The notes beneath the pieces are model-generated. The model ran no database searches, had not been told where the DNA came from, and saw nothing but the letters and a program-made list of their open reading frames with translations. A program made the translations under genes and the position numbers. Below, in pieces: positions 20,644-59,376 of a stretch of DNA of 64,000 nt. Position 1 is the stretch's first letter, and the number at the start of each line of letters is the position of its first letter. Source of the DNA: Tritonibacter scottomollicae (lineage in GTDB: Bacteria > Pseudomonadota > Alphaproteobacteria > Rhodobacterales > Rhodobacteraceae); assembly GCF_003003215.1 (NCBI RefSeq), contig NZ_PVUF01000002.1, forward strand, positions 248,001 through 312,000, written 5' to 3'.

Positions 20644-20671
20644 AGTCAGAGAAAGCATATGAATGCGCAAA
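20644..20671 (+). repeat. Left terminal inverted repeat and first TnsB-site candidate
   Basis: 28 bases starting AGTCAGAGAAAGCATATG and ending ATGCGCAAA. They are the exact reverse complement of 59349-59376. Confidence 0.85.
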
Positions 20672-20742
20672 ATCAATCGCTTCCGATTCGGCACCAGGAA
20701 TCCATAAACATTTTCAACAACTTGCCGGACGCGATTTCCAGA

Positions 20743-20767
20743 GTGAAAGCATATATCTGCGCAGAAA
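20743..20767 (+). repeat. Second TnsB-site candidate, left end
   Basis: This stretch reads GTGAAAGCATATATCTGCGC followed by AGAAA. It keeps GAAAGCATAT and TGCGCA of the terminal repeat at the same spacing and orientation. A weaker third copy (GAAACC...CCTGCGCATCA) follows at 20764-20785. Confidence 0.65.
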
Positions 20768-20836
20768 CCAAAAACCTGCGCATCATCAGCGGCTTAGCTG
20801 GTGCGGGCATCCGGGCGCCAGCATCCAGGCATGAAA

Positions 20837-20864
20837 AAACCCGCGCCGAAGCGCGGGTTTCTCA
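20837..20864 (-). terminator. Terminator of the tnsA-tniA-tniB operon
   Basis: A perfect 10-bp stem pairs AAACCCGCGC with GCGCGGGTTT. Read on the minus strand the loop is TTCG and the stem runs into TTTTTTC, a textbook intrinsic terminator. It lies 23 bp after the tniB stop and inside the left end. Confidence 0.88.
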
Positions 20865-20886
20865 AAGACTGAATTGTCCTGGAAGA

Positions 20887-21876
20887 TCAGGTGCCGATGG
20901 CGGCCCGGAACGGCTTGTCCCTCCGGAACATCCTCTCGTAGCTGTCATGCGTGAACGGCGTCGCCAGCTGGTTCATTCCGGTTTTCTCGCACCAGGCCGC
21001 CACGAAATCCGACCGCTCAACCCCCCCTTCCCTCCTGGCAACGGCAAGCGCCACGGCATCGACGACCATGTCGATGACCAGGCCCCACCTGAATGCGCCA
21101 GCAGTCGCGAGGCGGTGCAGGAAATCTCCCGTCGGTAGGCTTGCATCTACATAAAGCCCCGCGCTGATGGCGTAGCTGCCGACGATTTCGTTGAGGGTTT
21201 CATAGTCCTGTGCCGGATGCCCGGGCGCACTGCTCAAATCGATTTCCTGGAACTCGATCCTGGTCATCAGCCGATCGAGTTGTGGCTCGCGTTGCACATA
21301 ACCTCCCAGTTCCGGAACACCCGAAAGGATCAACATGAGTGGCCAGTCGTGTGACTTCATCAGGGTCTTGAAGGCGTCCAGGACGCTCAGAACCTCGGCA
21401 TCCGACTTTCCGCGCATGATATGCTGGGCTTCGTCGTAGTAGATCCCGACGACGCCCTGGAGCTTGGCCTGCTTGACGACCAGATCCCAGATCTCAAACT
21501 GGGTTCGGCGCGTCTTGTTCGTAATCGGATAGCCCAAGGCGTGAAGTGTCTTGCGGCCAAGATCCTTCCAGGACCCTTTCGCCTCAAGCACGCAGCTTGC
21601 AAACCGCGCATCCTTGCCGTCAGGCATGCGAACAGCGCTCTCGTTGAAGCGATTCAACATGTCCGAGATCTCGGCTGTCTTGCCAGAACCAGACAGCCCC
21701 GTCACAAGGAGGCTACGTGCCTCGAAGCCCTTCCCGGACTGCAGGCGCCCCAGGTGGCGACTGAAGAGCTGCGCGAAGGTCTGCTGAAGTTCCTCGCCCC
21801 TGGCCAGCGGGAAATGCCGCTGGGCGAGATCCGCATTCAGGTTTGCCAATGAGCGAATGATGAAGGGGTTGGTCAC
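20887..21876 (-). CDS. tniB: Transposition AAA+ ATPase TniB (TnsC-like)
   Basis: Regulator ATPase that links target selection by TniQ/TnsD to the transposase. The 329 residues carry Walker A GLSGSGKT at residues 60-67 and Walker B VVGIYYDEAQH near 140, the typical TniB signature. A sensor-like SGVPELG follows, with a C-terminal helical part (GAFRWGLVIDMVVDAVA). Length matches TniB/TnsC of Tn5053/Tn7-like elements. The GTG start overlaps the tniA stop by 4 bp. It is the last gene of the operon and is followed by a strong terminator. Confidence 0.93.
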   Translation of the reverse strand: MTNPFIIRSLANLNADLAQRHFPLARGEELQQTFAQLFSRHLGRLQSGKGFEARSLLVTGLSGSGKTAEISDMLNRFNESAVRMPDGKDARFASCVLEAKGSWKDLGRKTLHALGYPITNKTRRTQFEIWDLVVKQAKLQGVVGIYYDEAQHIMRGKSDAEVLSVLDAFKTLMKSHDWPLMLILSGVPELGGYVQREPQLDRLMTRIEFQEIDLSSAPGHPAQDYETLNEIVGSYAISAGLYVDASLPTGDFLHRLATAGAFRWGLVIDMVVDAVALAVARREGGVERSDFVAAWCEKTGMNQLATPFTHDSYERMFRRDKPFRAAIGT

Positions 21877-24116
21877 AGTTTGCTATCCTTGATGGGGCCG
21901 AAGGTCATGGTCTTGATGTCGTCAGGGTCTGGCGCCGAAGTTGCCCCCGTCTCTGGGGTCCCATCCGCCTGTCCAGCGGACCGCGGCGACGATGTACTTG
22001 CCCTGGGAGGCGTCGAAGCGGATGGCGGTTTAGACGGAGCCGTACCGGCCGGGCGTGCCGGCACCACACCCGACGCGCGCCCCCTGCTCATGAGCTGCCC
22101 GGGAGCAGCAGTGCCGCCGATGTAGGCGGCGGGGCGCGCTTCCACTTGGTGAAGCTTGTCAGCGCGACGCCTGAGCTGCTCGATTTTCCGGTAGCTCAGG
22201 GGATCACGAGAATCTGGGAAGAAGCCGGATTCGGTTGCGCGGCGCTGCATGGCTTCGCTCAGGTTCTCCTCATGAAGAACACGCAGGCTGGGATTGGATG
22301 CCATTGCGTTCTCCATGATCTCAATGGCCTCTTCGAGCGATTGATCCTTGAAAATCGTCATGCTCAAACGGGTCTCCGCGACCTCCTCGTCACCCTCTGC
22401 GGTGACATAGACCTTGCGAAGATCGTCTGGATCGAGATGCACGGTGACCTCTTTCGCGGTGCCGGCCGCCAAGTCTTGAAGTGCCTTCGAGTTGAACGGG
22501 ATGTTGAATGCCCTCACGCCTTCGGATGTCGTGGTTGCCCGGACTTTTTCTCCAAGGTGCAAACAACGGCTTCGCTGGGAGGGCGCCTCAATAGGCCCAT
22601 AGCGCCGCAGGGCTTCTTCCCGTTTCTGACGAGGGGTCGCGCCAAACATCCCAGTGCCACGGTGCGGACGGAAGGGGTATTCATCGACGAAGTACCGCGT
22701 GATCGTTCCGTAGAGCTGATCGTGGCTGAGTTCGGCAGATCCCTTGGGATCATAGCCGGTCAGCTCTCCCGGACGGCTGCCCGTATATCCAGGCTGGAAG
22801 TTCAGAACATCCCATTGCGTCGTACCGAAAAGCCGCTCGACCATTTGCTTATCCATTGGCTGATAGGCACGCGCTGTCATGACGGTCATCCCCATGCCAA
22901 GCTGGCTGGCGTAGACTTCGGCATTTCGAGTTGCAGTGCCATTGTCCGCCAGGGCGAGGCCCAGCCGCACCGGAGGAGCGGGGTCCTGCTTGCACCCGTA
23001 CCGCACCTTCTCTTTAGTCTTGTCGCGCGTCGCCATGCGAAGCAGAGCCTTGCTGTGGTCAGCGTCGGCTGTCTCTGAAATGATCCAGCCAAGTACCTCG
23101 CGGGTCGCGACATCGAGGATCACATGGAGCCAGCAGCGGCGGATCTCGTTGTCCGCAAGCTCCTGAGGGGCTTCCTTAGGGTTGATCACCTCAGCACGCA
23201 CGACACCGTCCCCGGAGGTGAAAATCGACAGCAGGCACTGGTCCCATTCGAACTTCTCGCCAAACGCCAAGGCACGCACGTCGGTCGACCCAGCTCCCTT
23301 GGTGTTAGTCCCGTGCCGCGTCCCACCTCGACCGAGCACGGCGACGACATCTGAAATCGCTTTCGCGCGCGTACGGACCGTCGTGATCGAGGGGAAATTG
23401 ATCTCTTGCGCCATCTCTCTCGCAGAGCGGTGGAAAACCTTTGTCGCCAGCTTGAAAACGGATGCCAGCTTCGGCTGTCTGAGATCAAGCCAACGGTTCA
23501 GGACATAGTCGATGAACCGCTCTTGCCATTCGCAGAGCCTGGGCTCCCGACGCCCCTTCATGCGATCACGATCTGCCAGGACCACCGGGTTCTGCTCGAA
23601 GCGATAGTAAACGTCGCGGTAGTTGGCCAAGGTGCGCCCTTGCGGGACGTCAAAGCCGCTTGCGAGCTTCCCGCCGCGGCGTGTCCCGAGGAAATTGTGT
23701 CCCGGTGCGATCTCTTCCGCGCGGGTCAGCAGTAGACGGCGATGTGTACCGCCCTTGTTCATACTGCGCTGGGTGAGCTTCACGCCCTCGGCGCGCAGCT
23801 CGTCTTGGGCGATAACGAGGGCGAGACGCGCTTGGACAATTCGCTGGTCTTTGTCCGACAGCTGCTCGACGAACTCGAGGCCGTCGGTATGCTCGAGCAA
23901 TGCCATCCGCTTTTCGACATCAGCCGGCTTGATGATTTCGCAATCCCGGTTCCGAATTGCAGTCTCAACCCGCTCCAGCGAAAGCGTGAAACACTCGCCG
24001 GTTTCCTTGCATTCCACCGCATAGCCGCTCTCCTCGCGAACCGACACAGTCAGTTCGCGACCATCCAGCTGGAGGATAGATCCCCTGGGGATGTTGTAGA
24101 GCGGTTGCGAAGTCAT
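21873..24116 (-). CDS. tniA: Transposase TniA/TnsB (DDE, Mu-type integrase core)
   Basis: Catalyses 3'-end cleavage and strand transfer of the transposon. The 747 residues show the expected order: N-terminal DNA-binding region, an rve/DDE core with the first aspartate in FEWDQC (about residue 292), the second in LALADNGTA (about 390) and the glutamate in QMVERLFGT (about 426), then a Mu-transposase C-terminal beta domain and a proline/serine/alanine-rich tail that in TnsB proteins contacts TnsC. It overlaps tnsA and tniB by 4 bp each, so the three proteins are made together. Confidence 0.93.
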   Translation of the reverse strand: MTSQPLYNIPRGSILQLDGRELTVSVREESGYAVECKETGECFTLSLERVETAIRNRDCEIIKPADVEKRMALLEHTDGLEFVEQLSDKDQRIVQARLALVIAQDELRAEGVKLTQRSMNKGGTHRRLLLTRAEEIAPGHNFLGTRRGGKLASGFDVPQGRTLANYRDVYYRFEQNPVVLADRDRMKGRREPRLCEWQERFIDYVLNRWLDLRQPKLASVFKLATKVFHRSAREMAQEINFPSITTVRTRAKAISDVVAVLGRGGTRHGTNTKGAGSTDVRALAFGEKFEWDQCLLSIFTSGDGVVRAEVINPKEAPQELADNEIRRCWLHVILDVATREVLGWIISETADADHSKALLRMATRDKTKEKVRYGCKQDPAPPVRLGLALADNGTATRNAEVYASQLGMGMTVMTARAYQPMDKQMVERLFGTTQWDVLNFQPGYTGSRPGELTGYDPKGSAELSHDQLYGTITRYFVDEYPFRPHRGTGMFGATPRQKREEALRRYGPIEAPSQRSRCLHLGEKVRATTTSEGVRAFNIPFNSKALQDLAAGTAKEVTVHLDPDDLRKVYVTAEGDEEVAETRLSMTIFKDQSLEEAIEIMENAMASNPSLRVLHEENLSEAMQRRATESGFFPDSRDPLSYRKIEQLRRRADKLHQVEARPAAYIGGTAAPGQLMSRGRASGVVPARPAGTAPSKPPSASTPPRASTSSPRSAGQADGTPETGATSAPDPDDIKTMTFGPIKDSKL

Positions 24117-24853
24117 GCGTTCAGCGCGACCCGGGAGGGGTAGTCGATGACCCCATGCATGTCCGTCCAGAGCACATTGTGGCCGATGAGCCGCATCGCC
24201 GCCTGGTAGCAGCGACCCGGCTCAAAGTCGCAATTCTTGATTAGGTCGCTCAGGTACCAGTAGTTGGTCATGCGCGCGGCGTCTTCGACGATCTTGTCGG
24301 CTTCGGCATCTGCAAGCTGCAGATAGTCCCAGATACGGCGAAGGTTATCGCGGTATGCCCGCGTGTAATCATCGGTGCAGACAACCATGCAGTCGTCAGC
24401 GAAGTCCTCGGTGACCGCGGCGAAGATGTCGTCGATCTCGTCCTGGGTTTCGCGCTTCGCCAAGCTAGTCGCGTTGCGGACGAAGACCGCGCGCCGGTAC
24501 CCATCCCTGAACGTCAGCCGCAAGTCGAACCGATGGGTCCGCACCTTCCGCTTCTGCCGACAGTAGAAGCTAAGCGGAGGAAGCTGTACCTCCAGCCCAT
24601 AGAGCTCGGGGCTGCGAAGGGCATCCAGGGCAACGGCGTATTCGGACTCGCCATCGAAATGGTAAACCTGCCGGATGCCGCCGGTCATTGGAGTTGCAAT
24701 CGCGGCCGACACACGCTTGACAGTGTCGCTGCGCGTCAACGGATTGCGGTCACCAGCATAGGGCAGAACCCCGTGGATCGGCGCCACCACCAGGGCTGCT
24801 TGTTTCTTCTTGGGTGCCGGTTGGTCCTGCAACCAGTCTTCGTAATTCGACAT
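24113..24853 (-). CDS. tnsA: TnsA-like endonuclease
   Basis: Expected to cut the 5' ends of the transposon so that it moves by cut-and-paste. The 246 residues show a TnsA-type N-terminal nuclease region: GESEYAVALDALRSP with glutamate 71, HRFDLRLTF with aspartate 110 and the next strand AVFVRNATSLAK. In Tn7 TnsA the lysine of a QxK motif occupies this last strand; here arginine 126 stands at that place and the nearest lysine is residue 133. The C-terminal half is alpha-helical and could bind TniB. ATG 24853 has GGAGA upstream. First gene of the transposition operon. The call rests on position and on these motifs. Confidence 0.82.
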   Translation of the reverse strand: MSNYEDWLQDQPAPKKKQAALVVAPIHGVLPYAGDRNPLTRSDTVKRVSAAIATPMTGGIRQVYHFDGESEYAVALDALRSPELYGLEVQLPPLSFYCRQKRKVRTHRFDLRLTFRDGYRRAVFVRNATSLAKRETQDEIDDIFAAVTEDFADDCMVVCTDDYTRAYRDNLRRIWDYLQLADAEADKIVEDAARMTNYWYLSDLIKNCDFEPGRCYQAAMRLIGHNVLWTDMHGVIDYPSRVALNA

Positions 24854-26973: not shown

Positions 26974-29772
26974 TTGTCTGAATTTATCCGAAAGCGAGTA
27001 CTTAAAGATCTCATTGATGAGATCCTAGATCTTGATGCAATTGCACTCGAATTGGTTGGGCATCGGGTAATCGAATGTATCGAGGGTCAACGACTTGTAC
27101 ATCATGGTATAAATAAGGACTATAAGCCAGTTGGGTATACAGTCGACAGCTTCACCCAAGATTTCACGACGGTGGGCGAGTACAGTACAGAAAAGGATTA
27201 CTTTGAGGATCAGTCCGGCCGCAAGAAGCTTAATTCTTTCAGAAAAATTGAAAACGATATCAATCATGCCTTGAAGATGGCGGATCAGATTGCGCTTCGT
27301 AAAATCTACCTCGTCTCGACCTGCGAAGAACCACCCAGCTTCCGGGGGAGTTTCAATAAAACAGATCTGTCGATTGCTCACTCGGATAAAATCGAGTTTC
27401 TGGATGGCCGTCAGTTGGCCGAGAGAATTTTGGAGTTTTCAATCGAAAACCCAAGTGACGCGGAATTTTTCCGCTACTTCTTACCTGATTTCTCCCAAAA
27501 TCTGGACAGCTATGAGTATTATGGCCGCGTTCCCACTAGTTGTCCTGGCCACCATCTTGAGCCTTTAATCCTTGACGCCATTAGGGCGCACTTCGCCGCG
27601 ACTGCGAAGGTCTGCGTGCTTTATGGATTGAGCGGATCTGGAAAAACGCAAGCAGCAATTGACTTTGTGCATGCGGAACTCCCTCAGTTCGGAAACTACA
27701 TTTGGATTTCAGGAAGCGACTGGGCGGAAAACACCCCACTTACAGCGATCAAGCGTTCACGTGGTGGTGTCCCGATAAATGTGGCAGGTGTATTCAACCG
27801 CACGAAGACCATTCTGGTTATTGATGACTTAGGCCGATCCACCTCTGAGAACATGTTTTCGGAATTAGAACGAGGTTTCGAAATTGGCAGTAGAGTGATC
27901 GTCACATCTCAGATTGGCGATCCAAATAGCGAGATCCATCTGCCAGTTCCAAAGTTCTCAACCGCTACCGCTTTCGCGATCCTTGGGGAAGATGAAAAAA
28001 CGGCAAATGATGACTTAGCTCGGTTCATTGAAGCCTGCCGTTTCTGCCCTTTGATCCTTTCAGTCACTCGCGAGGTCGCGAATACAGAGGGTGTCGACAA
28101 GCAGGAGCTTTACGAAGAGGTTTTGGCTCTTCCGGAGGTGGCTGAAGACTTTGACGGCCGTTCCGTTATGGACCGGCTACTTCAACGCCTTAGTGAGAAC
28201 AATCGAGATGCATTGTCCAAGATAGCAACCAGTGGCTGTACCAGATTTGACTCGAGGTTTCTGACGCGCTTCATTGGCGCCAACGCTCGCGCATCCCTAC
28301 AGCGTTTGGGAATTGTAACGCGCGCCGGAGCGTCGTCCGCATTGACCGTCCACGATTTGATATGCAGCGCAATGCGACGTGGTGCCAAGATGGATGGTTC
28401 AGATCTGGCGATAGAAATCGTCAGATTGGTCGAGAAGCTCCAAGGAGAAATGCTCCCAAGCGTTCTTCGACAAATCCACCTTTCGGCGGATCAACTTCTG
28501 GAGGCTCATAGATCACGTGAGAAGCCGCCTGTCGACTGGTTAACATATTCGCTTCTTCAGATTGAAAGCGGTGACAAGCTGGGATTGGCACCAGGTGCTC
28601 ACCTTGACCCTATTCACGACAAGATGACGTTGCCGGAGCTACTTTGTGTCATCGACCTTAGGGAAGCCCATTCGTATAGCCTGCCGCACGACCAGCGATT
28701 GGCGTACTATGTAGCATGCAGTGAAGAATATGGTCGGATAGCTGCGCTCTCAACCAATCACGAAATCAGAGTAGAGCTCCTTCATCACCAGGGAAAGTCG
28801 CTTCGTAGAAGCGGCAAGCTCGAACCTGCTGTGGAGTGCTTCCGCGAGGTCCTCGAAGGGAGGCCCAACTGGCACGCGACCTACGGCCAAATTGCGCACG
28901 CCGGCTCGCAAAAAGGAGCGTCGGATGACATACGCAAGTTCGGTGAAGAGGCGGAGAGGTTCCTAATCTGCGCGATTATGAACGACATCGATAAAGTACC
29001 GTTACGTGTATCTCTTGCGTCGATTGGACGCCTGCGATCCTATCCCGCTCTGCGCGACGAATTGCAGAAGTCGCCAGATGCGGTCAAGCAGCTTGCAGAA
29101 TTAGTGACCTTGGCTGCCCTGTCAGGCTTCCAACAGTTTTATGAAGGATTCTTGGCATTCACGAGTCTTTTTTCCTACCATCATGGAGAGCATCCTGTTG
29201 CGATCGCCCAGTTCTTTGGAGATTTGCTCGCGATTTACCCTGAGGCGGTCGAGGAGCGACAGTGGTCCAATGTTTGCGAGGCGTTATCCAACACGGCTAC
29301 CGCTGCGTCTATTGCCGGAAAAACTGAATTGTCTACTAAACTAAATGCAACTGCTTGCGTCTTCGCGGATGCACTTTCGGCTAAAGGCAATATGAATAAC
29401 TATGTGCTGCGACTAGTCGCCAAGACCTACATTGGTTCCGGGCAAGCTGACAAGGCGTGTGCTCTTCTCGAGACCGTACCCGATGAAAGCAAGGATCATT
29501 GGGTTCTCTATCAGGAAGCCAAAGCTCAACTAGATGAAAAGCTTGTGAGCCGCGCGCTCTCTACGTCTAAACTGGCATTGGCGTTGGCAGAGAAAGACCA
29601 AAGGGCGACGGGGCGGTTAGGGTCGTACTTGGATCTCATAAGCCGATGCCACGAAGGGGACGGCGACATTCGAAATGCGTTGATCGCAGCGCGGGATGCT
29701 GCTGCTCGGACGTCTCACGGAAAATATCGAGAGCAACTGGAGAAACGAATAATGGAACTGGAAGCCAAGTGA
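26974..29772 (+). CDS. STAND-type NTPase with possible N-terminal nuclease and C-terminal repeats (Avs-like architecture)
   Basis: A 932-residue protein. Residues 1 to about 170 could be a PD-(D/E)xK-type nuclease: GYTVDSF (D58) followed by GEYSTEK (E69, E73, K74), the core spacing of that fold. Then comes a P-loop NTPase with Walker A LYGLSGSGKT (about 216-225) and Walker B ILVIDDLG (about 280), a winged-helix-like region, and from about residue 550 alpha-helical TPR-like repeats. Effector-NTPase-repeat order is that of antiviral STAND proteins (Avs), which sense a phage protein with the repeats and trigger the nuclease. Start is TTG with TTGAGG upstream. Lower GC than the transposition genes suggests separate origin. 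The defence role is inferred. Confidence 0.7.
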   Translation: MSEFIRKRVLKDLIDEILDLDAIALELVGHRVIECIEGQRLVHHGINKDYKPVGYTVDSFTQDFTTVGEYSTEKDYFEDQSGRKKLNSFRKIENDINHALKMADQIALRKIYLVSTCEEPPSFRGSFNKTDLSIAHSDKIEFLDGRQLAERILEFSIENPSDAEFFRYFLPDFSQNLDSYEYYGRVPTSCPGHHLEPLILDAIRAHFAATAKVCVLYGLSGSGKTQAAIDFVHAELPQFGNYIWISGSDWAENTPLTAIKRSRGGVPINVAGVFNRTKTILVIDDLGRSTSENMFSELERGFEIGSRVIVTSQIGDPNSEIHLPVPKFSTATAFAILGEDEKTANDDLARFIEACRFCPLILSVTREVANTEGVDKQELYEEVLALPEVAEDFDGRSVMDRLLQRLSENNRDALSKIATSGCTRFDSRFLTRFIGANARASLQRLGIVTRAGASSALTVHDLICSAMRRGAKMDGSDLAIEIVRLVEKLQGEMLPSVLRQIHLSADQLLEAHRSREKPPVDWLTYSLLQIESGDKLGLAPGAHLDPIHDKMTLPELLCVIDLREAHSYSLPHDQRLAYYVACSEEYGRIAALSTNHEIRVELLHHQGKSLRRSGKLEPAVECFREVLEGRPNWHATYGQIAHAGSQKGASDDIRKFGEEAERFLICAIMNDIDKVPLRVSLASIGRLRSYPALRDELQKSPDAVKQLAELVTLAALSGFQQFYEGFLAFTSLFSYHHGEHPVAIAQFFGDLLAIYPEAVEERQWSNVCEALSNTATAASIAGKTELSTKLNATACVFADALSAKGNMNNYVLRLVAKTYIGSGQADKACALLETVPDESKDHWVLYQEAKAQLDEKLVSRALSTSKLALALAEKDQRATGRLGSYLDLISRCHEGDGDIRNALIAARDAAARTSHGKYREQLEKRIMELEAK

Positions 29773-32067: not shown

Positions 32068-32169
32068 GATCCGGCCGTCCGCGCCGGGCCCAATCTGGGC
32101 ACAAGCGGGCGAACCTAGGGGGCGGGAGGTCCGTCCCCCGAACACGTCCATCCGAGGAGGAACAGGACA

Positions 32170-49286: not shown

Positions 49287-51151
49287 CTACACCACTCCCC
49301 CTCGCGCCCGATCTCCAGGATCGGGAAACTGCTTTCTCCTTCGTATCTCGCCTCGCCGCGATGAACGGCGTGGATACTGCGGGCTTCTGTACCGACATGG
49401 GGCTGCCATTCACCAAGATGATTGACGGCAAGCCCGATGTCCTGGCCCGTCTGGCAGATCTCAGCGCGACTGATGTCGAGGAGCTGCGGAGTTGGTCTCC
49501 GCGCCACCTGGGCAACCGGGAGCATGAGTTCCGCGGCAATCGCGTTCATGCCAAGGCCATCAAGGAAAGCACCGTCCGGGGTTGCCCTGCCTGTCTGCGG
49601 GAGGATGCGGAAGCCGCCCCAGACAGTTTTGAAGGCGACATGTACATCAGGGGCCACTGGCTCTTCCGGCCTGTGACACTTTGCCTGAAGCATCACCATC
49701 CCCTCGTTCCGCTATGGGCCGAGGCCAATGTCAGCCGACGCTACGACGCTGCCGCTCGCTTGGCCGAGATCGCGCCCGGCGTATGGGCTGGAAAACTGAA
49801 CAAAGAGCTTCGCGCCCCCAACCCGTTCGATGAATGGATTGAGGCCCGCCTGGCGGGCACCCTCACGGAGAGCTGGCTGGATCAGTTCGATCTCTACGCC
49901 GCCGCGCATTTTTGTGAACTCCTTGGGCGCGCCATTTGGGCGGTCAGATACCCGAAGTGGAAGAAGTTCGGCCCGGAACTTGCCTGGATGTCCTTCGAGA
50001 TGGGCTTCCGCTTCGCGACGGAAGGGGAAGCGACAGTCCGCGATACCCTGATGCAGCTGCAGGAGACCATTGGCGAGCCGACCGACGGCCCCAAGAAGAA
50101 CGCGCTCTATGACCGGCTCGCGTTCGACCTCTTGGGCGAGGCCTACGCACCCTTCCGGGAACTTCTCCGTGACCACATCGCAAGCACCTGGCCACTTGGC
50201 CCGGGCGACGATCTCATGGGTGAGCCTGTGCTGGAGCGAAAGGTCCACTCGGTCCGCACCGCCGCCCGCGAGCTTGGCATGGATCCCCGGCGCCTGCGCA
50301 AGCTGCTGGTCGATGTCGATCTCGTCCAGCCCGTCGAGACCGGCCGCGATGACCAATGGGAGCTGTTCGATGTCAAGGCAGCGCAGCCGCATCTCGAACG
50401 GATCAACACCCTGGTGTCCGCAAAGGACTTCCAGGAAGCATTGAACATGTCACGCTCGCAGTTCGAGCTCTTGCGAAAAGAGGGGCATTTCCCGCCCGTG
50501 ATCGACGGTGGAGACCACAAGCCACTCTGGGACGTCCGTGCCGCGCACCTGCATCTGGAAAGCCTGTTGACCGGTGCCGAGCCAATCTATGTAACCATGC
50601 ACGGCTGGGACGACATCCCGACGACCGCGCGAAGCCTCGAGGTCTCCCCCAGCACAGTCCTGAAGCTGCTCGAGGACGGCAAGGTTCAGCGGATCGGCCG
50701 ACACACCAACCGTGATGGCTACGCCAGCATCGTCGTCACGAAAGGCGAGATCGAACGCCTTCTGGAACGCCCCGAGGCGCCGGGTCTCAGTATCGACGTC
50801 TTCGCTCGCCAGTGCGGTCTTACCCGCTCCGCCGCCATGCGGCTGGTGCGCGAGGGGCATGTCCCGTCCACGGAAGGCCGACACCCCAAGACCAAGGCAC
50901 GGCAGCGCTTCCTGGCGCCAGGCGACCTCGCCGCTTTCCATGAGCAGTTCGTGACCCTGCGCGGCCTGGCCGTCGAGCTTGGCATGCCCTGGCAGGCGCT
51001 CCGGCCCAAGCTGGCGGCCGCGGGTCTCAAGCCTTTCAGTCCAGACGGGCAGGACTACGGCGCGGTTTTCGAGCGCAATGTCGCTACCGCAGCTGACCTT
51101 GAAACCACGAAACCAAGAAGCCTTCTAAACAAGGGGAAAGACGGGGAATGA
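49283..51151 (+). CDS. tniQ: TniQ-family target-selection protein (internal copy)
   Basis: A 622-residue protein. The N-terminal TniQ domain is clear: RETAFSFVSRLAAMNGVD, VRGCPACLRED near residue 100 with a CxxC pair, and GHWLFRPVTLCLKHHHPLVP with the second zinc pair (CxxH). The C-terminal two thirds hold several excisionase-like helix-turn-helix units (AARELGMDPRRLRKLL, TARSLEVSPSTVLKLL, FARQCGLTRSAAMRLV), which would read DNA. Total length fits TnsD-like proteins that recognise a chromosomal site. Start is TTG overlapping the previous stop. It lies 24 kb from tniB and about 8 kb from the right end, and is a paralogue of the protein at 57420-59264. Its target is unknown. Confidence 0.88.
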   Translation: MTTPLPLAPDLQDRETAFSFVSRLAAMNGVDTAGFCTDMGLPFTKMIDGKPDVLARLADLSATDVEELRSWSPRHLGNREHEFRGNRVHAKAIKESTVRGCPACLREDAEAAPDSFEGDMYIRGHWLFRPVTLCLKHHHPLVPLWAEANVSRRYDAAARLAEIAPGVWAGKLNKELRAPNPFDEWIEARLAGTLTESWLDQFDLYAAAHFCELLGRAIWAVRYPKWKKFGPELAWMSFEMGFRFATEGEATVRDTLMQLQETIGEPTDGPKKNALYDRLAFDLLGEAYAPFRELLRDHIASTWPLGPGDDLMGEPVLERKVHSVRTAARELGMDPRRLRKLLVDVDLVQPVETGRDDQWELFDVKAAQPHLERINTLVSAKDFQEALNMSRSQFELLRKEGHFPPVIDGGDHKPLWDVRAAHLHLESLLTGAEPIYVTMHGWDDIPTTARSLEVSPSTVLKLLEDGKVQRIGRHTNRDGYASIVVTKGEIERLLERPEAPGLSIDVFARQCGLTRSAAMRLVREGHVPSTEGRHPKTKARQRFLAPGDLAAFHEQFVTLRGLAVELGMPWQALRPKLAAAGLKPFSPDGQDYGAVFERNVATAADLETTKPRSLLNKGKDGE

Positions 51152-51501
51152 AATACCTCATCACAACATATGACCGCAATGATGTGACTGATCATGCCAA
51201 CTACTGCGAGGCTCATCAAATCCCATGCATATACGCGCTGGTTCTGGGCGAAAAATGCACTGTCTTCGTTCACTGCGAAAAACTTACTGGCCCCCGGAGC
51301 GAAGCCATCAAAGCCCATGAGGCCGAGTTTGCGGAATTTATCGCTCGTCTCGACAACACCTACGCGAAGCCCGCTTGGGTTCAGCCAACCCTGCCAATGT
51401 CATTCTGGTATCACGACCTGCCTGCTTCAGCTGCGGAGGACGTGGCGGAAGAGACATATGAATTCTTGAGAACGATCCTGGCTCCGTTCGACGACAAGTA
51501 G
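51148..51501 (+). CDS. Hypothetical protein, last gene of the phosphoesterase-TniQ operon
   Basis: A 117-residue soluble protein with no recognised motif. It has a mixed alpha/beta look (MKYLITTYDRND, IYALVLGEKCTVFVH) and an acidic end. The ATG overlaps the TniQ stop by 4 bp, so translation is coupled. It may be a partner of that TniQ. Confidence 0.6.
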   Translation: MKYLITTYDRNDVTDHANYCEAHQIPCIYALVLGEKCTVFVHCEKLTGPRSEAIKAHEAEFAEFIARLDNTYAKPAWVQPTLPMSFWYHDLPASAAEDVAEETYEFLRTILAPFDDK

Positions 51502-51733
51502 GTGACGAGCGGCTTCGCCACGCGAGGCATACCACTTGCGAGACAGACCAGGCCACTTGGCCAGCATTGCGGTCGAGCTGAAACGGGATCCCCCAAAGCC
51601 CTCGGTCACCCCGCTTCACGGCATGACGAGCGCAAACCGCGATGCAGTCTTTGCATCGGGCTTCATCCCTGGCCGGCGGTGTCACGCCCACCACACATTG
51701 CACTCCCGACAACGAACTAAGGAGAAGACTCAC

Positions 51734-52108
51734 ATGGACTATTCACCTGACGACTGGGTGATCCTGAACGTTTCGTTTGCGACGCGGGACAGAGCTTTCA
51801 CTCAGCTCAGAGTGTTGGGCGGCTGGCGAGGCGGGTATCTCAGTGGAGATGCATGGCGCATAAACTCTGGTATCCAAGCCGTTCATGCGGATGACGTCGA
51901 ATACCGCTTCCTTGGTCGATCAGGTTCTGTCTATCTATGCCCTCGCGACGGATATCGTATGTCACGCATCATGGCGTCTGGCTTAGCCGAGCTGAAGCGT
52001 CAACCGACCGTTGTCGATGCAGAAATTCTTGAAGACCGGAATTGGCTTGAACCGGGGCTCCTTGAAGCACTTCTCTCGAGGGCGGCTGACGATACAGCGG
52101 CGAGGTGA
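51734..52108 (+). CDS. Hypothetical protein
   Basis: A 124-residue protein beginning MDYSPDDWVILNV, with LRVLGGWRGGYLSGDAWRIN as its most conserved-looking part, followed by short beta strands and an acidic C-terminus. I have the impression that similar short proteins occur in roseobacters and plasmids, without a known function. ATG 51734 has AAGGAGAAG upstream; the frame is open further 5' but without a ribosome site. The next 296 bp (52109-52404) show no gene. Confidence 0.6.
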   Translation: MDYSPDDWVILNVSFATRDRAFTQLRVLGGWRGGYLSGDAWRINSGIQAVHADDVEYRFLGRSGSVYLCPRDGYRMSRIMASGLAELKRQPTVVDAEILEDRNWLEPGLLEALLSRAADDTAAR

Positions 52109-53001: not shown

Positions 53002-53132
53002 ACCACCGATATGTTGGCAAACCCTTGCAACTGCAGCATCCGACAATTTGGGCTCCAAGCCGCCTTGCGGCGCTGCGGCAGCAAGGTTGCAGCGAATTCG
53101 CACCAGATCCAAGCGGCCAGATGACGCCAGCC

Positions 53133-53136
53133 AGCC
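53133..53136. repeat. AGCC target duplication, left of the IS1182-type element
   Basis: AGCC directly precedes the left inverted repeat and recurs directly after the right one at 54800-54803. A 4-bp duplication is usual for this family. Confidence 0.8.
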
Positions 53137-54799
53137 GAGGGTGTGTGGAAACTCTTTTGATATTTCGGCTTTCAGGGTTTTCTACTGGTTTCTTTTGGGT
53201 TTTCCGGTTTCTGGGCTATTTCGGGGCACATTTCGCCGGAGGGAGGCGGAAACCGAGCTCTCAGGGCGTTTTCTGCGGTGTAATTCGAGCCGGACGCCCG
53301 GGTTTAGGCCGGGATGGCGGTCAGAAGCCCACGTACCCCGATCAAGGAAATCATCCGTTTGATGTTATAGGCGAGGACATGGAATGCCATCTCGGTTCGG
53401 ACGTTCTTGAGCGTTCGCATCCGGAAGTGCGTCGCTCCCATCCAGGCCTTGATCGTGCCGAACGGGTGCTCGACGGTCGAGCGGCGGAGGCCCATCAGGG
53501 CCGGGGCGCGGATCAGGCGGTCGCGCATCTCGTCGACCAGATGTTCGTGCTCCCATCGGGTGATCCGGCGCTCCTTGCCCGTGGTGCAGCGCGCCTTGAC
53601 GGGGCAGCTCAGACAGGCGGTGGTCCAGTATCGCCGCGCCACCAGGCCGCCCTCTTCAGTCGTGTAGCGATATGACAGCGTCTCGCCTGCCGGGCATTGG
53701 TAGTTATCCGCATCCGCGTCATAGGCAAAGTCGGCCTTCACATACTTGCCCTTCTTGCGGTTGCCCGAGGTCTCAGGCCGGGGGAGGGTCGTGGTGATGC
53801 CATCCTCGTGACAGGCCAGAATTTCCCGGCCGCTGAAATATCCCTTGTCTGCCACCGCGCTCATTTCGTCGCGCACGAGAGCGGCCTTCGCCGCCTTGGC
53901 CATCGGCGACAGTTGTTCACGGTCGTGCCCGGCATTGATCACGTCATGCGTGACAATCAGATGGGTCTCGGTATCCACCGCCGACTGGGCGTTGTAGCCA
54001 ACAAAACCGCTGCCTTTGGCGCTGGTGGCCATCGAGCGGCAATCCGGATCAGTCAGAGAGATCTGACTGTCCGGGCACTGTCTGAGCGCCTCACCCATGT
54101 CCACCAGGCGCTCGATCTCCTGCCGGATGCGCTCGCAGCGTTGCGCCAGGTTGGCGATCTTCTCGGCCCGGACCTCACCCTCTTCCTGACGGTCGATCCG
54201 GACCATTTCATCAAGATAACGCTGAATGCTCGCGACCAGATGGGCGGTGCGGCTGGCGATCTTGCCCTTGGTGAAATTCTTATCTCGATTGTTGACCGCT
54301 TTGAATTTGGAGCCATCAATGGCGACGCAATCCCCCTTCAGCACCCCGATCCGGCGACAGAGCTCGACGAATTGCGCACAGGTTCGCCGAATGGCGGGGC
54401 CGTTATCGCGGCGAAAATCGGCGATCGTCTTGTGGTCCGGAGCTAACCGCCCGGTCAGCCACATCACCTCGACATTGCGACCAGCCTCCCGCTCCAGCGC
54501 GCGGCTGGAGGGCACGCGATTCAGATAGCCGTAGATGAACAGCTTCAGCAGCACCGATGGATGATACCCAGGCCGCCCTGTCCGCGCCGGCAAGGTTCTC
54601 AGGAAACCGATCTCTCCAAGATCAATCTCCTCCACAAAGAGATCAATCACGCGAACCGGATTGTCCTCTTCGATCCAGTCCTCAAGCCGGTCTGGAAAAA
54701 GCGTAACCTGACCCCGCTCCACACTCTCGATATATCCCGACATGCCTGCCTCCAGCCTTTGCATAAAATATACATCATCTGGAGTTTCCACACACCCTC
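53137..54799 (-). mobile_element. Intact IS1182-type insertion sequence, 1663 bp
   Basis: The ends are a perfect 18-bp inverted repeat, GAGGGTGTGTGGAAACTC at 53137-53154 and its reverse complement at 54782-54799. AGCC is duplicated outside both. The single transposase gene is full length without stops. It sits inside the transposon cargo, so it arrived after the Tn7-like element was formed. Confidence 0.88.
53304..54743 (-). CDS. IS1182-family transposase
   Basis: A 479-residue DDE transposase. N-terminal part: RVIDLFVEEIDLGEIGF, RPGYHPSVLLKLFIYGYLN, and PDHKTIADFRRDN. The catalytic core begins with CVAIDGSKFKAVNN (first D), continues through AVADKGYFSGREIL (second D) and ends with RRSTVEHPFGTIKAWMG (E). 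A zinc-like CLSCPVKARC lies before the last block, typical of IS1182. ATG 54743 is the family-like start (MSGYIESVERGQ); the frame stays open for another 16 codons upstream. Reading frame and terminal repeats are intact, so the element is probably active. Confidence 0.92.
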   Translation of the reverse strand: MSGYIESVERGQVTLFPDRLEDWIEEDNPVRVIDLFVEEIDLGEIGFLRTLPARTGRPGYHPSVLLKLFIYGYLNRVPSSRALEREAGRNVEVMWLTGRLAPDHKTIADFRRDNGPAIRRTCAQFVELCRRIGVLKGDCVAIDGSKFKAVNNRDKNFTKGKIASRTAHLVASIQRYLDEMVRIDRQEEGEVRAEKIANLAQRCERIRQEIERLVDMGEALRQCPDSQISLTDPDCRSMATSAKGSGFVGYNAQSAVDTETHLIVTHDVINAGHDREQLSPMAKAAKAALVRDEMSAVADKGYFSGREILACHEDGITTTLPRPETSGNRKKGKYVKADFAYDADADNYQCPAGETLSYRYTTEEGGLVARRYWTTACLSCPVKARCTTGKERRITRWEHEHLVDEMRDRLIRAPALMGLRRSTVEHPFGTIKAWMGATHFRMRTLKNVRTEMAFHVLAYNIKRMISLIGVRGLLTAIPA

Positions 54800-55039
54800 A
54801 GCCCAAAGGCGACATTCGTTCTGCAGTTGCATCTGATTGCCCTGCCTACTGGCAGGGGCGGAAAGGGGTCATTCGCTGCGGAGCTCATGAAGGTCTGCAG
54901 TGCCCCATTTTCCTTTTTTAAGTGCAACGACGCTCGACAAAAGGCACCACCGCAGTCAAACTTATGTCGGAGCGGACAGACCTTAAGTTGCAGTCTTCCC
55001 AATTGCAGAAATTTAGCGAGAACGTATGGAGCGTTGCGT

Positions 55040-56830
55040 TTGGAACTTATTAAAGAAATTGAAATTCGTTATTTTCGGAGTTTTTATAAATTTCGGCTGA
55101 AAGACCTCGGCGACCTAAGCATTATTTTTGGGAAGAATGACTCAGGGAAGAGTAATGTGGTCCGCGCCCTAAACTTGTTCTTCGCAGGCCGCCCAGAACA
55201 CTCTCACCCATTCGACTTCCCTATCGATTTCTGTGAACAAAGACTCTCGGAATCAGAGGTCGCCGACGATGTTCGGAAATTCCTTTATGTAAAAGTGACT
55301 TTCAATACGCCCTCGTCCTACAGAAAGTCACTCGGAGCCACCTTCTCGATAAAACGACAATGGACTGTCTCTCGCGGCGCCGACTACAACGAAGAAATTT
55401 CGCGACACATTCCAAAGCAGAAGCACTATCTTGTTACCCGACTGCTCAACAAAATTAAATTCATCTATATCCCCGCCATTAAGGATCTTAGTATTTTTGA
55501 AATGCTGCTCGCCAGCATCCACGAAACAATCTCCGAATCCGCTGATTTCACCAAGGCCATCGGCGACTTTTCGAACCAATTGCAGAAAATGACAAGCGAG
55601 ATGTTTAAGGGTCTTCCTGAAGAAGTATCTTCAAGCACCAAAATCGGCGCACCAACTCAATTGAGTCAGTTGTTCCAGACACTCGACTTTGAAACACTCG
55701 CCAATGGCGAATTGACGCCCAAGTCTCTCACCCGTCAGCGAGGAGATGGCGTCAAGGTTCGGCACATTCCAGAATTGCTGAATTTCATTTCTGAGAAAGA
55801 CAAATTTGATTTCCATATCTGGGGCTTTGAAGAACCTGAGAACTCTCTCGATTTCGTTGCCTCACAGTCCGAAGCTTCTCGAATGCTGGCGTTGGCAAAG
55901 GGTGATCGCGTCCAGGTGATAATGACCACTCACAGCCCATCCTTCTACCTGCTGGATGACCCTTCTGTGGCGAAGTATTATGTCAGCAAGAATTCAAAGG
56001 GGCTTTCCACTCCCACACAGGGGAAGGACTTGAAAGAATTTGACGCCCAAAGTGCGCTTCAAGATGGTTTCTACCTCCCGGCGGTGGCGGAAGCCGTCAA
56101 GCAAGTCGCCGAGATTGAGGCCCGCGCCAAGCAAGCCGAGGAGGCTGCGACAAATCTAGCGCAGGAACTCGCGGAGATCACAACGCCCGTCGTTTTGACC
56201 GAAGGCCGAACCGACGCCAAGATTTTGCTTTTAGCATGGGAAAAGCGGCGCGGAGGAACGCCGCCATTTCAAATACGGAGTTGTGAAACGGGCGGGGAAC
56301 AGGCCGGTTCAGGAAACGGCGGCGCGGGCAGCTTGGCTCTGCGCGTCAAGGCCATCGCGGCCGATCACCCCAACACCGTCGTTGCGCTGTTCGATAGAGA
56401 CCCTGAAGGCATCGCAGCATACAAGCTAGACAAGAATTTCGTGGAGTTCGATGTTGTAGGCCACAAAGCAAAGCGCGGAATGCATGGCAAATCCTACGCA
56501 GCTCTTCTGCCTGCGCCAGATTTCAGAGATGATTGCGCAGCGTACCAGAATCTGCCGATTGAATTCTTGTTTCGTGACGAACACTTAGGGAAATCCGTGG
56601 ATGGAAAGCGACTCGCCCTCAAAGGCAAGAAGGCCAGCACTATGGTAGGAACCCAGAAGGTAGAGAAACCACTTGATGACGTGACACATTTTAAAGACGT
56701 TGGAAATGGGAAAACTGACTTCGCAGAAGTGATTGTTCCGAGCTTTGACGCTGAAGCATTCGATGCATTTGATCAAGTTTTTTCGATTATCGAAGGGTTA
56801 ATTGCGTTTGAAGCTGCTCGTGTTGATTGA
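55040..56830 (+). CDS. OLD-family ATP-dependent nuclease (ABC ATPase plus TOPRIM)
   Basis: A protein of about 596 residues. The N-terminal ATPase half has EIRYFRSFYKF, Walker A FGKNDSGKSN at about 30-38, Walker B IWGFEEPEN near 275 and the H-loop MTTHSPSFYLL. The C-terminal TOPRIM nuclease half shows VLTEGRTDAKILLLAW (glutamate) and VVALFDRDPEG (DxD). These are the parts of OLD and GajA-type nucleases used in phage defence. The start is taken as TTG 55040 (GGAG 9 bp before); the ATGs upstream are out of frame or in repeat DNA. No GajB-like helicase or toxin gene follows, so it may be a one-gene OLD system. AT-richer than its neighbours. Confidence 0.82.
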   Translation: MELIKEIEIRYFRSFYKFRLKDLGDLSIIFGKNDSGKSNVVRALNLFFAGRPEHSHPFDFPIDFCEQRLSESEVADDVRKFLYVKVTFNTPSSYRKSLGATFSIKRQWTVSRGADYNEEISRHIPKQKHYLVTRLLNKIKFIYIPAIKDLSIFEMLLASIHETISESADFTKAIGDFSNQLQKMTSEMFKGLPEEVSSSTKIGAPTQLSQLFQTLDFETLANGELTPKSLTRQRGDGVKVRHIPELLNFISEKDKFDFHIWGFEEPENSLDFVASQSEASRMLALAKGDRVQVIMTTHSPSFYLLDDPSVAKYYVSKNSKGLSTPTQGKDLKEFDAQSALQDGFYLPAVAEAVKQVAEIEARAKQAEEAATNLAQELAEITTPVVLTEGRTDAKILLLAWEKRRGGTPPFQIRSCETGGEQAGSGNGGAGSLALRVKAIAADHPNTVVALFDRDPEGIAAYKLDKNFVEFDVVGHKAKRGMHGKSYAALLPAPDFRDDCAAYQNLPIEFLFRDEHLGKSVDGKRLALKGKKASTMVGTQKVEKPLDDVTHFKDVGNGKTDFAEVIVPSFDAEAFDAFDQVFSIIEGLIAFEAARVD

Positions 56831-57419
56831 AGCCTGCCTACGTTCCTTAGTTAAAGTCGTGACCTTTAGAATATGCAGCTATAGTGGTCCGCGTTTTGAA
56901 CCATAGTTTCTACTTTTGAATTGCAGGACATGGCTGTGATCGGTCATCCGCCGCACATCGCACGAATGACCGGAAAGGGCCGGTCTGGTTCCGATGGGCG
57001 AAGACGGTTCGCAACTTTGCAGCGGCAGCTTCCTGCGCTTCGCTGCCCCTGGTGCTGACCGCAGCATACGAAAGAGCAGCCGCCGCTTACTGAATGGCAG
57101 CTTTCGGGAACTCGTCGCCTTACAGCAGAGGTTTCGCTGCACCTCGCATGAATGTCGTAGTTGGGCTGACACCTGCTATTCACCGAGTGGGATTTCAAAG
57201 TCCGCTTTCGCGGCATAGCCCATTCCGGCTGCTGATCAGACTGTTCTGACAGGTTTATGAAAGTACTGGGCTGGAAGCTCCTATCATCATGGATGATCGC
57301 TGCCCTGCATGGTGGCGGCGCAATCTCTCTGGTTTGTGTGACGCTCTCGGGCATCGGTTGCGGGCACGCCCAGGAAGGGGCATGTGGAAGGTCAATCTCA
57401 ACTCCTGTATCGGCATGAT
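56831..57419. other. Intergenic region with degenerate repeats before the right-end TniQ
   Basis: About 590 bp without a convincing gene. It contains the stretch 57126-57166 that resembles 20370-20410. A G-rich AGGAAGGGG at 57372-57380 precedes an alternative GTG start for the next gene. Confidence 0.4.
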
Positions 57420-59264
57420 ATGGTTTACCAGCTGCCCCTTACCGTCACACCACTCCCCCGCGAGACATTTCCCTCGTTCTTTGCTCGGCTCGCTGCCGCC
57501 AACGGCACCGACGCCATCAGCTTCGCGATGGATATGGGGGGCAGCCTGAAGCGCGTGGTTCATCAGGATGCGGAAATGGTCAAATTGGTGGGCCAACTCG
57601 CGGGGATCACTGATGAGGAGATGACCACACTCCTGTCGTGGACGGGGGAGCCTCTGGGCGATGTTCGGATGCAGTATCGCGGAGAGGTGTTTGTCTCACG
57701 CGCGGTCAGGAATCCCGTGGTGCGTGGCTGCTTGCGGTGTCTTGCAGAGCAAGCAGCCGCGCCCGGTGTTCCCCTCGCAAACATGGCCATGCAAGGGCAT
57801 TGGCTGTGCCGTGGCGTCGACATCTGCATAACTCATCAGCAGCCTCTTGTCCCGCTCTGGACAGAAGGCAATCCCGTACGTCGTGAAGACATGGGCGCAC
57901 ACCTGCGCACACTGTTGCCAGACCTGACATCAATGACAGCAAAGACTGAATGCGTCGCGGTCAGCGCCTACGATGCCTGGCTCGACAAGCGACTATCCGA
58001 GAACCAAGATCTGACATGGCTGCGGACCCAGACCAGCTTCGCGGGCATGACCATGTGTCTGGCGCTCGGCGAAGATATTCTCCGGCATCAAAGTCTGACC
58101 CCCAATGACCGCGCGGCCAAGGCAGCCGGATTCGGTGTCATCAGCTCCGGGCCGGACGCAATACGCGCCACGGTGCGCAGTCTTCTCCGCAGGGACGACG
58201 GCACGCTCACAATCTCAAAATCCCCCCTGAAGAGCCTATCTTACACACTTGTCGAGGCCTACCCGGACAGCATGGAATTCGACGACTTCCGGCAAATCAT
58301 TCGTGATGAACTGATGACCTTCTGGCCCATCGCGCCGGGAGACACACTCCTAGGGCAAGTGGTGGAGACGCGCCGCTTCCATACCATCGCCAGTGCTGCT
58401 GAAGAGACAGGACTGCACAAAGGGCTGCTTCAGGACATACTGACCGCTGAGGGCGTCTTCGACCCGACACAATGTCAGCAGACGCACCCCCGGACCTTCG
58501 ACGCAGAGGCCTACGCGGCCTTCCTTGCGGAAATCCCGCATCTCGTTCCCGGGTCCGACATAATGACGGAACTCAGCGCGACCGAAACGGAGTTCGAAGC
58601 ACTTTGTGCAGAGGGCGTGCTGCGACCATACCTCAAGACTGCGAAGGTCCTGAACAGGTGGCGGCGGGCTGATGCCACTGCATTGCGCGAAACGCTGACG
58701 TCGCGCCTCAGAAAGAAACAGGCCTCGCGGAACGCCGACACACTCCTGATGACCAGGCGCGCGCTTGGGGTGCGGCTCACCGCGCTGATCGCAGCCATTC
58801 AGGACGGGCGACTGGCCGCCTTCCGCCACGATGATCAGGAAGGTTTTCATGCGATCAGGGTCGATCGAATGGACGTCGAGGCACTGATCAAGACCTTGCC
58901 GCCAGACGTGCTCATCGATCGGCCTGAAACCAAGGTGATCAGTGCCAGCGTCTTCGGAAAGCAGATCGGTCTGGTCGAACCGAAATACATGGTGCGGCTT
59001 GTCGCGACAGGTCACAGTCCGGGCACGGAGATCACGAACTCGGTCACGAAGCGCAAGCAATGGTCACTTGCGGAAGATGACATTGCTGCCTTCCACAAGC
59101 GATTCACGACAACCGCGCTGCTCGCGAGGAAGGCAGGCGTTCACCGTCGGACGATCACCAGCCAAGTCCAGCACCATGGCACGCAGCCATTCTCCGCTGG
59201 CGACGAGGTCTTCGAGGGCATCTACCTGCTCTCAGATGTTCAAGAAATCACGAAAACCAATTGA
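57420..59264 (+). CDS. tniQ: TniQ/TnsD-like target-selection protein at the transposon right end
   Basis: About 614 residues from ATG 57420 (MVYQLPLTVTPLPRETFPSF); GTG 57384 would add 12 residues and has a closer ribosome site. The TniQ domain is clear: FPSFFARLAAANGTD, VVRGCLRCLAEQA with CxxC, and GHWLCRGVDICITHQQPLVP with the second zinc pair. The long C-terminal part has helix-turn-helix units (TIASAAEETGLHKGLL, FGKQIGLVEPKYMVRLV, LARKAGVHRRTITSQV). It ends 112 bp from the right end, which itself lies 8 bp from tRNA-Arg, so this protein is the best candidate for the factor that recognises the tRNA gene, in the way TnsD recognises glmS for Tn7. Confidence 0.88.
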   Translation: MVYQLPLTVTPLPRETFPSFFARLAAANGTDAISFAMDMGGSLKRVVHQDAEMVKLVGQLAGITDEEMTTLLSWTGEPLGDVRMQYRGEVFVSRAVRNPVVRGCLRCLAEQAAAPGVPLANMAMQGHWLCRGVDICITHQQPLVPLWTEGNPVRREDMGAHLRTLLPDLTSMTAKTECVAVSAYDAWLDKRLSENQDLTWLRTQTSFAGMTMCLALGEDILRHQSLTPNDRAAKAAGFGVISSGPDAIRATVRSLLRRDDGTLTISKSPLKSLSYTLVEAYPDSMEFDDFRQIIRDELMTFWPIAPGDTLLGQVVETRRFHTIASAAEETGLHKGLLQDILTAEGVFDPTQCQQTHPRTFDAEAYAAFLAEIPHLVPGSDIMTELSATETEFEALCAEGVLRPYLKTAKVLNRWRRADATALRETLTSRLRKKQASRNADTLLMTRRALGVRLTALIAAIQDGRLAAFRHDDQEGFHAIRVDRMDVEALIKTLPPDVLIDRPETKVISASVFGKQIGLVEPKYMVRLVATGHSPGTEITNSVTKRKQWSLAEDDIAAFHKRFTTTALLARKAGVHRRTITSQVQHHGTQPFSAGDEVFEGIYLLSDVQEITKTN

Positions 59265-59327
59265 AATCAGAGCAATAGGGCCCGCGTGCCAAAACTCTGG
59301 ACAAGCGAAAAACGTGCTTGACAGCCC

Positions 59328-59348
59328 TTGCGCAGGCTTATGCTGTCG
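59328..59348 (-). repeat. Second TnsB-site candidate, right end
   Basis: Read on the minus strand it is CGACAGCATAAGCCTGCGCA plus A. It keeps the A-AGCATA and TGCGCAA parts of the terminal repeat and points the same way. It adjoins the terminal copy directly. Confidence 0.65.
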
Positions 59349-59376
59349 TTTGCGCATTCATATGCTTTCTCTGACT
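59349..59376 (-). repeat. Right terminal inverted repeat
   Basis: 28 bases that are the exact reverse complement of 20644-20671. On the plus strand they end in TTTCTCTGACT, then the duplicated GAACA. Confidence 0.85.

Follow-up and report, generated by a model that had tools for sequence, protein, structure and literature searches.

A Tn7-like transposon beside tRNA-Arg(CCU) in Tritonibacter scottomollicae with two putative target selectors, of tRNA-Arg and nrdJ types

Introduction

The downstream flanks of tRNA genes are described as safe sites for Tn7-like elements (PMC8649781), and the Tn7-like I-B2 and I-D CRISPR-associated transposons (CASTs) home beside tRNA genes, CyCAST 30-33 nt downstream (PMC10293859). 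Two TniQ/TnsD genes per element are on record at 1,048 tandem loci (PMC10293859), TniQ partners are exchanged between Tn7-like elements, and some of these have ends other than TGT (PMC11406308). Here a stretch of 64,000 nucleotides of T. scottomollicae (contig NZ_PVUF01000002.1, positions 248,001 to 312,000, forward strand; "the window") was analysed. The evidence supports a Tn7-like transposon of 38.7 kb beside a tRNA-Arg(CCU) gene. This element probably carries two chromosomal target selectors, TniQ2 for tRNA-Arg and TniQ1 for the ribonucleotide reductase gene nrdJ.

Targeting of tRNA genes and dual TniQ are already known; the pairing of tRNA-Arg with nrdJ, and an nrdJ site as such, were not found in the literature searched. 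That literature, outside which lay most subscription papers and the cyanobacterial I-D paper, gave no account of a Tn7-like nrdJ site or of a TniQ/tRNA-Arg transposon, and in a search that included ribonucleotide reductase none of the papers listed matched that term. Beyond an initial annotation of the window, the analysis adds the second selector and a putative linkage of the two selectors to two sites. Comparison genomes, contigs and loci are cited by our G, C and L numbers.

Element ends and insertion site

The element is bounded by AGTCAGAGAAAGCATATGAATGCGCAAA at 20644-20671 and its reverse copy at 59349-59376, identical at 28 of 28 positions, and all nine exact inverted 20-mer seeds in the whole window came from this pair. 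Directly outside, GAACA is present on both sides. Further TnsB-like sites start at 20745 and 20764 on the left and at 59328 on the right, so that by sequence three such sites lie at the left end and two at the right. A 20-base matrix derived from these five sites scored them at 23.1-27.9 bits, a circular scoring, and the next best position in the window at 13.4 bits. The perfect repeat, the degenerate inner motif copies and the duplicated GAACA of the initial annotation were all recovered, as was its right junction, 8 bp from the 3' end of the tRNA and adjoined by a large TniQ. These 8 bp are counted from the outer side of the right GAACA, so the 5-bp duplication comes on top of them.

20639-20643, no strand: target duplication GAACA, left copy
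20644-20671, plus strand: left terminal inverted repeat with the outermost TnsB-like site, AG..CT termini
20745-20764, plus strand: internal TnsB-like site, left end (motif scan)
20764-20783, plus strand: internal TnsB-like site, left end (motif scan)
59328-59347, minus strand: internal TnsB-like site, right end, 22 bp from the outer site (motif scan)
59349-59376, minus strand: right terminal inverted repeat
59377-59381, no strand: target duplication GAACA, right copy
59390-59466, minus strand: tRNA-Arg(CCU) (ARAGORN), putative attachment gene

The termini read AG..CT, both in the window and in the related element of Roseovarius amoyensis, and not the TGT..ACA typical of Tn7-like elements; because exceptions to the latter are reported (PMC11406308), it was not treated as a strict requirement. 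The G+C content of the element (0.59, against 0.58 and 0.59) does not set it apart.

The position beside a tRNA could also suggest a genomic island placed by a tyrosine integrase, with the Tn7-like genes as passengers. tRNA genes are common integrase sites, and in genome G007 a Phage_integrase gene lies by a tRNA-Arg 3' remnant. This origin is nevertheless highly improbable for the present element, as the TnsB-like arrays, the inverted repeat and the 5-bp duplication all contradict it. None of the 20 element ORFs scanned matched an integrase, and the left boundary yielded no second copy of the tRNA: a query of the tRNA with the right flank matched the source genome only here and, weakly, on C5, although a very short copy could escape. 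With neither an integrase gene among the ORFs scanned nor a duplicated tRNA 3' end matched by that query, the integrase-borne island was rejected.

When the window flanks were joined through a single GAACA, they aligned over 200 nt with the congener G012, 84% identical and with the sole gap away from the junction. The uninserted site for which the initial annotation had proposed a search therefore exists, but the sequence left of 20639 is not plain chromosome. Its last 50-110 bases recur in other contigs in stretches 79-85% identical, and four recurrences end in ..TGGCA at 11 or 14 bp from a tRNA-Arg, CCU in G012 and UCU in G004 C45, G009 C82 and source genome C23. With the element removed, the window's own ..TGGCA end lies 14 bp from the tRNA. 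Ends of this "B type" carry GTGCAAGCTTATG-like units.

20530-20638, no strand: apparent right end of a second, older Tn7-like family (B type), terminus ..TGGCA at 20637, seemingly a relic, outside the element (recurrence in other contigs)

This stretch resembles a right end belonging to a different Tn7-like family. Since the left flank recurs as a transposon end, a plain-chromosome empty site was dropped, and the comparison is one with the B-type/tRNA junction of G012. Given the ungapped junction and the B-type left flank, we read the element as having gone in next to the tRNA, at a place where an older transposon end already stood; the present arrangement looks like a tandem insertion, with the element lodged beside that older end. 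No B-type body was matched in window positions 1-20638 or 60 kb further left by the window TnsA, TnsB, TnsC and TniQ as queries (a divergent transposase could escape), and the only TniQ matches on this contig are TniQ1 and TniQ2, both inside the element. The B-type end is read as a relic because no transposase body or further TniQ matched to its left.

Transposition genes

The left end holds tnsC, tnsB and tnsA, all on the minus strand and reading outward to that end. They are followed by cargo, TniQ1, further cargo with an insertion sequence (IS), and TniQ2 adjoining the right end.

20887-21876, minus strand: tnsC, AAA+ ATPase, Walker A GLSGSGKT (Pfam AAA_22 and TniB over cut-off)
21873-24116, minus strand: tnsB, DDE transposase, D292, D391 and E427 by motif (Pfam Mu-transpos_C over, rve under cut-off)
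24113-24853, minus strand: tnsA-like nuclease subunit, Arg126 (profile chain via the L100 ORF)

All three frames are open and full length. TnsB matched the PseTnsAB structures 30jv/9t7l (E 2.4e-11); a TnsB scan of the viral-collection contigs gave no match. In direct scans no model of Pfam or NCBIfam matched TnsA over its cut-off. With a profile of six family TnsAs the L100 ORF was reached (9.7e-9), which in turn matched PF08722 over cut-off, so that the Tn7-like set of tnsA, tnsB, tnsC and TniQ is present within the ends, TnsA being recognised only via an intermediate sequence. An AlphaFold model of TnsA (mean pLDDT 34.9) was set aside.

TniQ2 and tRNA-Arg

57384-59264, plus strand: TniQ2, 626 aa, tRNA-Arg-type selector by relationship (PF06527, 67 bits; clade of tRNA-associated TniQs)

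In a TniQ tree of 31 rows (seven fragments and long branches dropped, the broken L181 not entered), TniQ2 fell in a clade of 15 rows with support 100/100. Eleven of these stand at tRNA-Arg, counting a G007 remnant and a G012 gene with its tRNA 2.8 kb off, and one at tRNA-Gln. None of the ten nrdJ-labelled rows fell inside the clade. That label covers genes adjoining nrdJ, genes that share a contig with it at distances of up to some tens of kb and, in the case of G018, a right end standing at nrdJ on a separate contig, and so carries less weight than the tRNA label. As several rows are near copies, the clade counts represent fewer independent events. The tree required four changes for nrdJ and four for tRNA-Arg. 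Judged by eye, the element ends that accompany clade members are of three sorts or more (A, B and, in G007/G009, a TGT..ACA type), and the best reading of these relationships is that TniQ modules move between transposase lineages and carry their target along.

A scan of the genus gave TniQ2-like matches in 13 of 18 genomes (34 rows, of which 30 have a locus). Twelve of these loci contain a called tRNA-Arg gene; they represent nine genes, one of which (G013 C36) appears in no tree. The tenth gene, in G012, has its tRNA about 2.8 kb away; next to the eleventh, G007 C26 (two loci), there is a 3' remnant of tRNA-Arg followed by an integrase gene, and the twelfth, G000 C44, stops at the contig end. 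After removal of the 12 tRNA-Arg loci and the four loci of these three genes, none of the remaining 14 had a tRNA; eight of them share a contig with nrdJ and are 0.1-37 kb downstream of it. Among 120 genomes drawn from the bacterial family, ten gave matches at 1e-60 (12 rows). The eight new loci, counted without three G000 rows and one row with the coordinates of the Salipiger bermudensis TniQ1, were at tRNA-Arg (three), tRNA-Gln (one), the nrdJ 3' end (one) or nothing recognised (three).

Two viral-collection contigs (L175 and L176) carry a TniQ2 98-99% identical, and in both just the 3' half of tRNA-Arg(CCU) is present next to the right end. It is as if a later element had entered the tRNA, or as if the 3' half suffices. 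Beyond the half tRNA, pentapeptide and TIR genes are present in L175 and a Shedu gene in L176. By sequence, TniQ2 gave only two weak matches to solved structures, both carbonic anhydrases (E 0.015 and 0.053).

TniQ1 and nrdJ

49283-51151, plus strand: TniQ1, 622 aa, nrdJ-type selector by relationship (PF06527, 78 bits)

The initial annotation had named just one TniQ; TniQ2 stands, and the second TniQ with its nrdJ link had been missed. TniQ1 shares 91-93% identity with the TniQs that same-family elements carry in Alloyangia mangrovi (G018), Salipiger pallidus (G020) and S. bermudensis (G022), where the neighbouring genes are the same. In G020 a single contig holds tnsABC, TniQ1 and both ends, the right one starting 16 bp after the stop codon of an adenosylcobalamin-dependent ribonucleotide reductase gene (NrdJ_Z, 592 bits, cut-off 400). 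In G018 the distance from the nrdJ stop codon to a right end is 21 bp. Other elements with TniQ1-like proteins are also found at the nrdJ 3' end, in G013 (35%) and G062 (L183, 41.5%). Near-identical end sequence stands beside nrdJ in G013, with a TniQ nearer TniQ1, and beside tRNA-Arg(UCU) in G005, with a TniQ of the tRNA clade; on these relationships, this end type appears to repeat the nrdJ/tRNA-Arg pattern of the window's family.

TniQ2 could instead be the sole chromosomal selector, with TniQ1 belonging to another pathway (e.g. plasmids) or being a leftover, and its presence at nrdJ incidental. Two-pathway Tn7-like elements usually combine one chromosomal and one mobile-DNA selector (PMC11406308), and TniQ1, rather than being at an end, is part of a conserved block within the cargo. 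We regard this as unlikely: by tblastn no TniQ besides TniQ1 was found between the ends of the G020 element, which sits at nrdJ, and the TniQ1-like proteins beside nrdJ in G013 and G062 belong to other elements.

By eye, many of 18 genomes (L127-L144) show short repeats past the nrdJ stop codon resembling various Tn7-like ends. The source genome's own nrdJ (C16) is among those with repeated end-like motifs 3' of the stop.

Same-family elements in other genomes

TnsB relatives were found at six loci, 67-92% identical by best segment, in A. mangrovi (G018), Poseidonocella sedimentorum (G019), S. pallidus (G020), R. amoyensis (G021), S. bermudensis (G022) and Roseivivax halodurans (G023), the last a tail fragment. 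Right ends were matched in 10 of 24 genomes searched. Long matches, ten from this search and one (G010 C19) from the tRNA search, had as outer neighbour tRNA-Arg(CCU) in three cases (window, G004, R. amoyensis), tRNA-Arg(UCU) in one (G010), the nrdJ 3' end in two (G018, G020), another transposon end in two (G020, G022) and an NDUS4-type gene in three (G011, about 48 bp past the stop; G007 and G009, about 240 bp; Pfam match checked on G011 only). Homologous elements do therefore occur beside tRNA-Arg(CCU), in G004 and R. amoyensis. Together with the G012 empty site and the TniQ clustering, the family right ends at tRNA-Arg support the earlier description of a protein-targeted, tRNA-directed Tn7-like transposon of about 38.7 kb.

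Both ends were seen in four elements, and the duplication matches in two, GAACA in the window and CCATA in R. amoyensis. In the latter, CCATA adjoins the left end on one contig and, on a second contig, the right end, which stands beside tRNA-Arg(CCU); G010 (L005) holds an uninserted counterpart of this site, compared by eye.

In the source genome, C34 carries a truncated right end about 500 bp from an NDUS4-type gene, which is perhaps a third landing site. The NDUS4-type loci with family right ends or relics are L116, L115, L118 and L126, and the gene beyond is presumably uvrB. In G020 (L093:9226-9228) a left end abuts the right end of another copy, with one base between and no matching duplication. 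A decayed copy in G004 (L063:17832-18229) has tnsB fragments directly before a start-less TniQ2, beside tRNA-Arg(CCU).

Proposed targeting and its alternatives

TniQ2 would bind the 3' part of tRNA-Arg genes and direct the element to a point some 10-20 bp past their 3' end, so oriented that the right end, which bears TniQ2, faces the tRNA. TnsC would join TniQ2 to TnsAB, and TnsAB, if active, would make the 5-bp duplication. TniQ1 would be a second selector, for the nrdJ 3' end, common to the family relatives dwelling at nrdJ. TniQ2 may have been gained later at the right end, opening the tRNA-Arg site. A wider proposal, to which we give slightly less than even chances, is that elements home alternatively to nrdJ or tRNA-Arg according to which is free, transposases swapping TniQ modules and landing sites and forming tandem arrays at a few genes.

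Several findings weigh against two chromosomal selectors in a working transposon. Three of the 15 TniQ2-clade members have no recognised target at their locus, and the terminus-to-tRNA distance is not constant: four genomes have 13, 10, 20 and 16 bases, and two contigs of the viral collection have 13 and 17. The tree does not divide TniQ1, the G013/G062 pair and the tRNA clade cleanly into two sister groups. In G022, the third genome with TniQ1, the right end faces another transposon's end and not nrdJ, and L161, a TniQ near an A-like end in G005, is beside neither nrdJ nor tRNA-Arg. No matching duplication flanks the elements of G020 (GACTC/ATAGG) and G018 (ATGTC/CTATG, ends on different contigs). 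The tnsB gene is split over two frames in S. pallidus and R. amoyensis (L034, L035), so these two elements are probably no longer active. Finally, Arg126 of TnsA aligns with a Lys of two distant TnsAs and is Arg in all six family members; we take the replaced residue to be the catalytic Lys, and the exchange may bear on cut-and-paste versus copy-in transposition.

The last two points could mean that a once-mobile element is now fixed, e.g. by a TnsA inactive through the Lys-to-Arg exchange, and decay is frequent among the relatives: A. mangrovi has a shorter tnsC frame and G004 a deletion. The remaining two TnsB-relative loci are fragments or cut by contig ends. Fixation is a minority possibility, however, as tnsA, tnsB and tnsC are open and full length in both the window and P. 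sedimentorum, and insertions with different duplications imply that the family has moved.

If two selectors do serve one transposase, as we consider probable, the element offers a natural test of landing-site swapping. The target-setting part of TniQ should be testable by simple swaps, because a natural selector pair exists along with a second end type having the same two alternatives. The nrdJ 3' end and tRNA-Arg would be two landing sites in Rhodobacteraceae that could serve for DNA placement without gene breakage.

Cargo

26974-29772, plus strand: 932-aa TPR protein (weak TPR matches)
30035-32271, minus strand: HNH-like 201-aa and 544-aa proteins (HNH_2 below cut-off; second without match)
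34021-39711, minus strand: 1896-aa RecQ-UvrD helicase (domain matches)
39708-45599, minus strand: 1963-aa DUF4011/MTES_1575 protein, ProA-type anti-phage (NF058533)
45807-47438, minus strand: DEDDh exonuclease-domain protein (RNase_T over cut-off)
47665-49286, plus strand: calcineurin-like phosphoesterase and 88-aa ORF, travelling with TniQ1
51148-52108, plus strand: two ORFs of 117 and 190 aa, travelling with TniQ1 (the 117-aa one just 35% identical in G018)
53304-54791, minus strand: IS transposase DDE_Tnp_1_6/DUF772 within the cargo (candidate ends 53121-53154/54782-54815)
54827-56830, plus strand: AAA_15 ATPase, AriA/GajA-like

The sequence matches support a cargo of putative defence-type genes. 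The 1963-aa protein scored 2104 bits against the NCBIfam anti-phage ProA model NF058533 (cut-off 1500) and the other matches were weaker; the defence-dominated cargo of the initial annotation holds at the level of matches, not of function. Residues 29-709 of the RecQ-UvrD helicase have a 97.5% identical copy in A. mangrovi. The IS with the DDE transposase (53121-54815) sits directly ahead of the AAA ATPase gene. No Cas effector was found in the Pfam matches of the 20 element ORFs, and no search was aimed at CRISPR arrays. In PADLOC (14 ORFs), Cas-type labels among the matches listed, the best 25 rows where lists were long, were only generic (the helicase as a possible alternative Cas3, DEDDh, TniQ).

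Comparison with known systems

As in Tn7, with tnsABCD at glmS, the element combines TnsA, TnsB and TnsC with a TniQ-domain selector and a 5-bp duplication, has several TnsB-type sites per end and is inserted past the 3' end of a conserved gene (Tn7 features after PMC11406308 and general background). It differs from Tn7 in its tRNA-Arg/nrdJ association instead of glmS, in two large TniQs about 6 kb apart, in its AG..CT termini and in having no TnsE match among the element ORFs scanned.

With the type I-B2 and I-D CASTs that use a tRNA-directed TnsD (PMC10293859, PMC11406308), it shares putative TniQ-family homing beside a tRNA and two TniQ-family proteins. Unlike those, it has no Cas effector among the matches seen, its TnsA and TnsB are separate and not fused, and both selectors appear to be of the chromosomal-site type; compared with the 30-33 nt of CyCAST, it is inserted nearer the tRNA. 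Two TniQ/TnsD genes per element are likewise a feature of the dual tniQ-tnsD Tn7-like elements, which are described as tandem in PMC10293859, whereas here the two genes lie about 6 kb apart, one of them at the end that faces the target. The window's element is the only one to hold both TniQ types among the family members seen.

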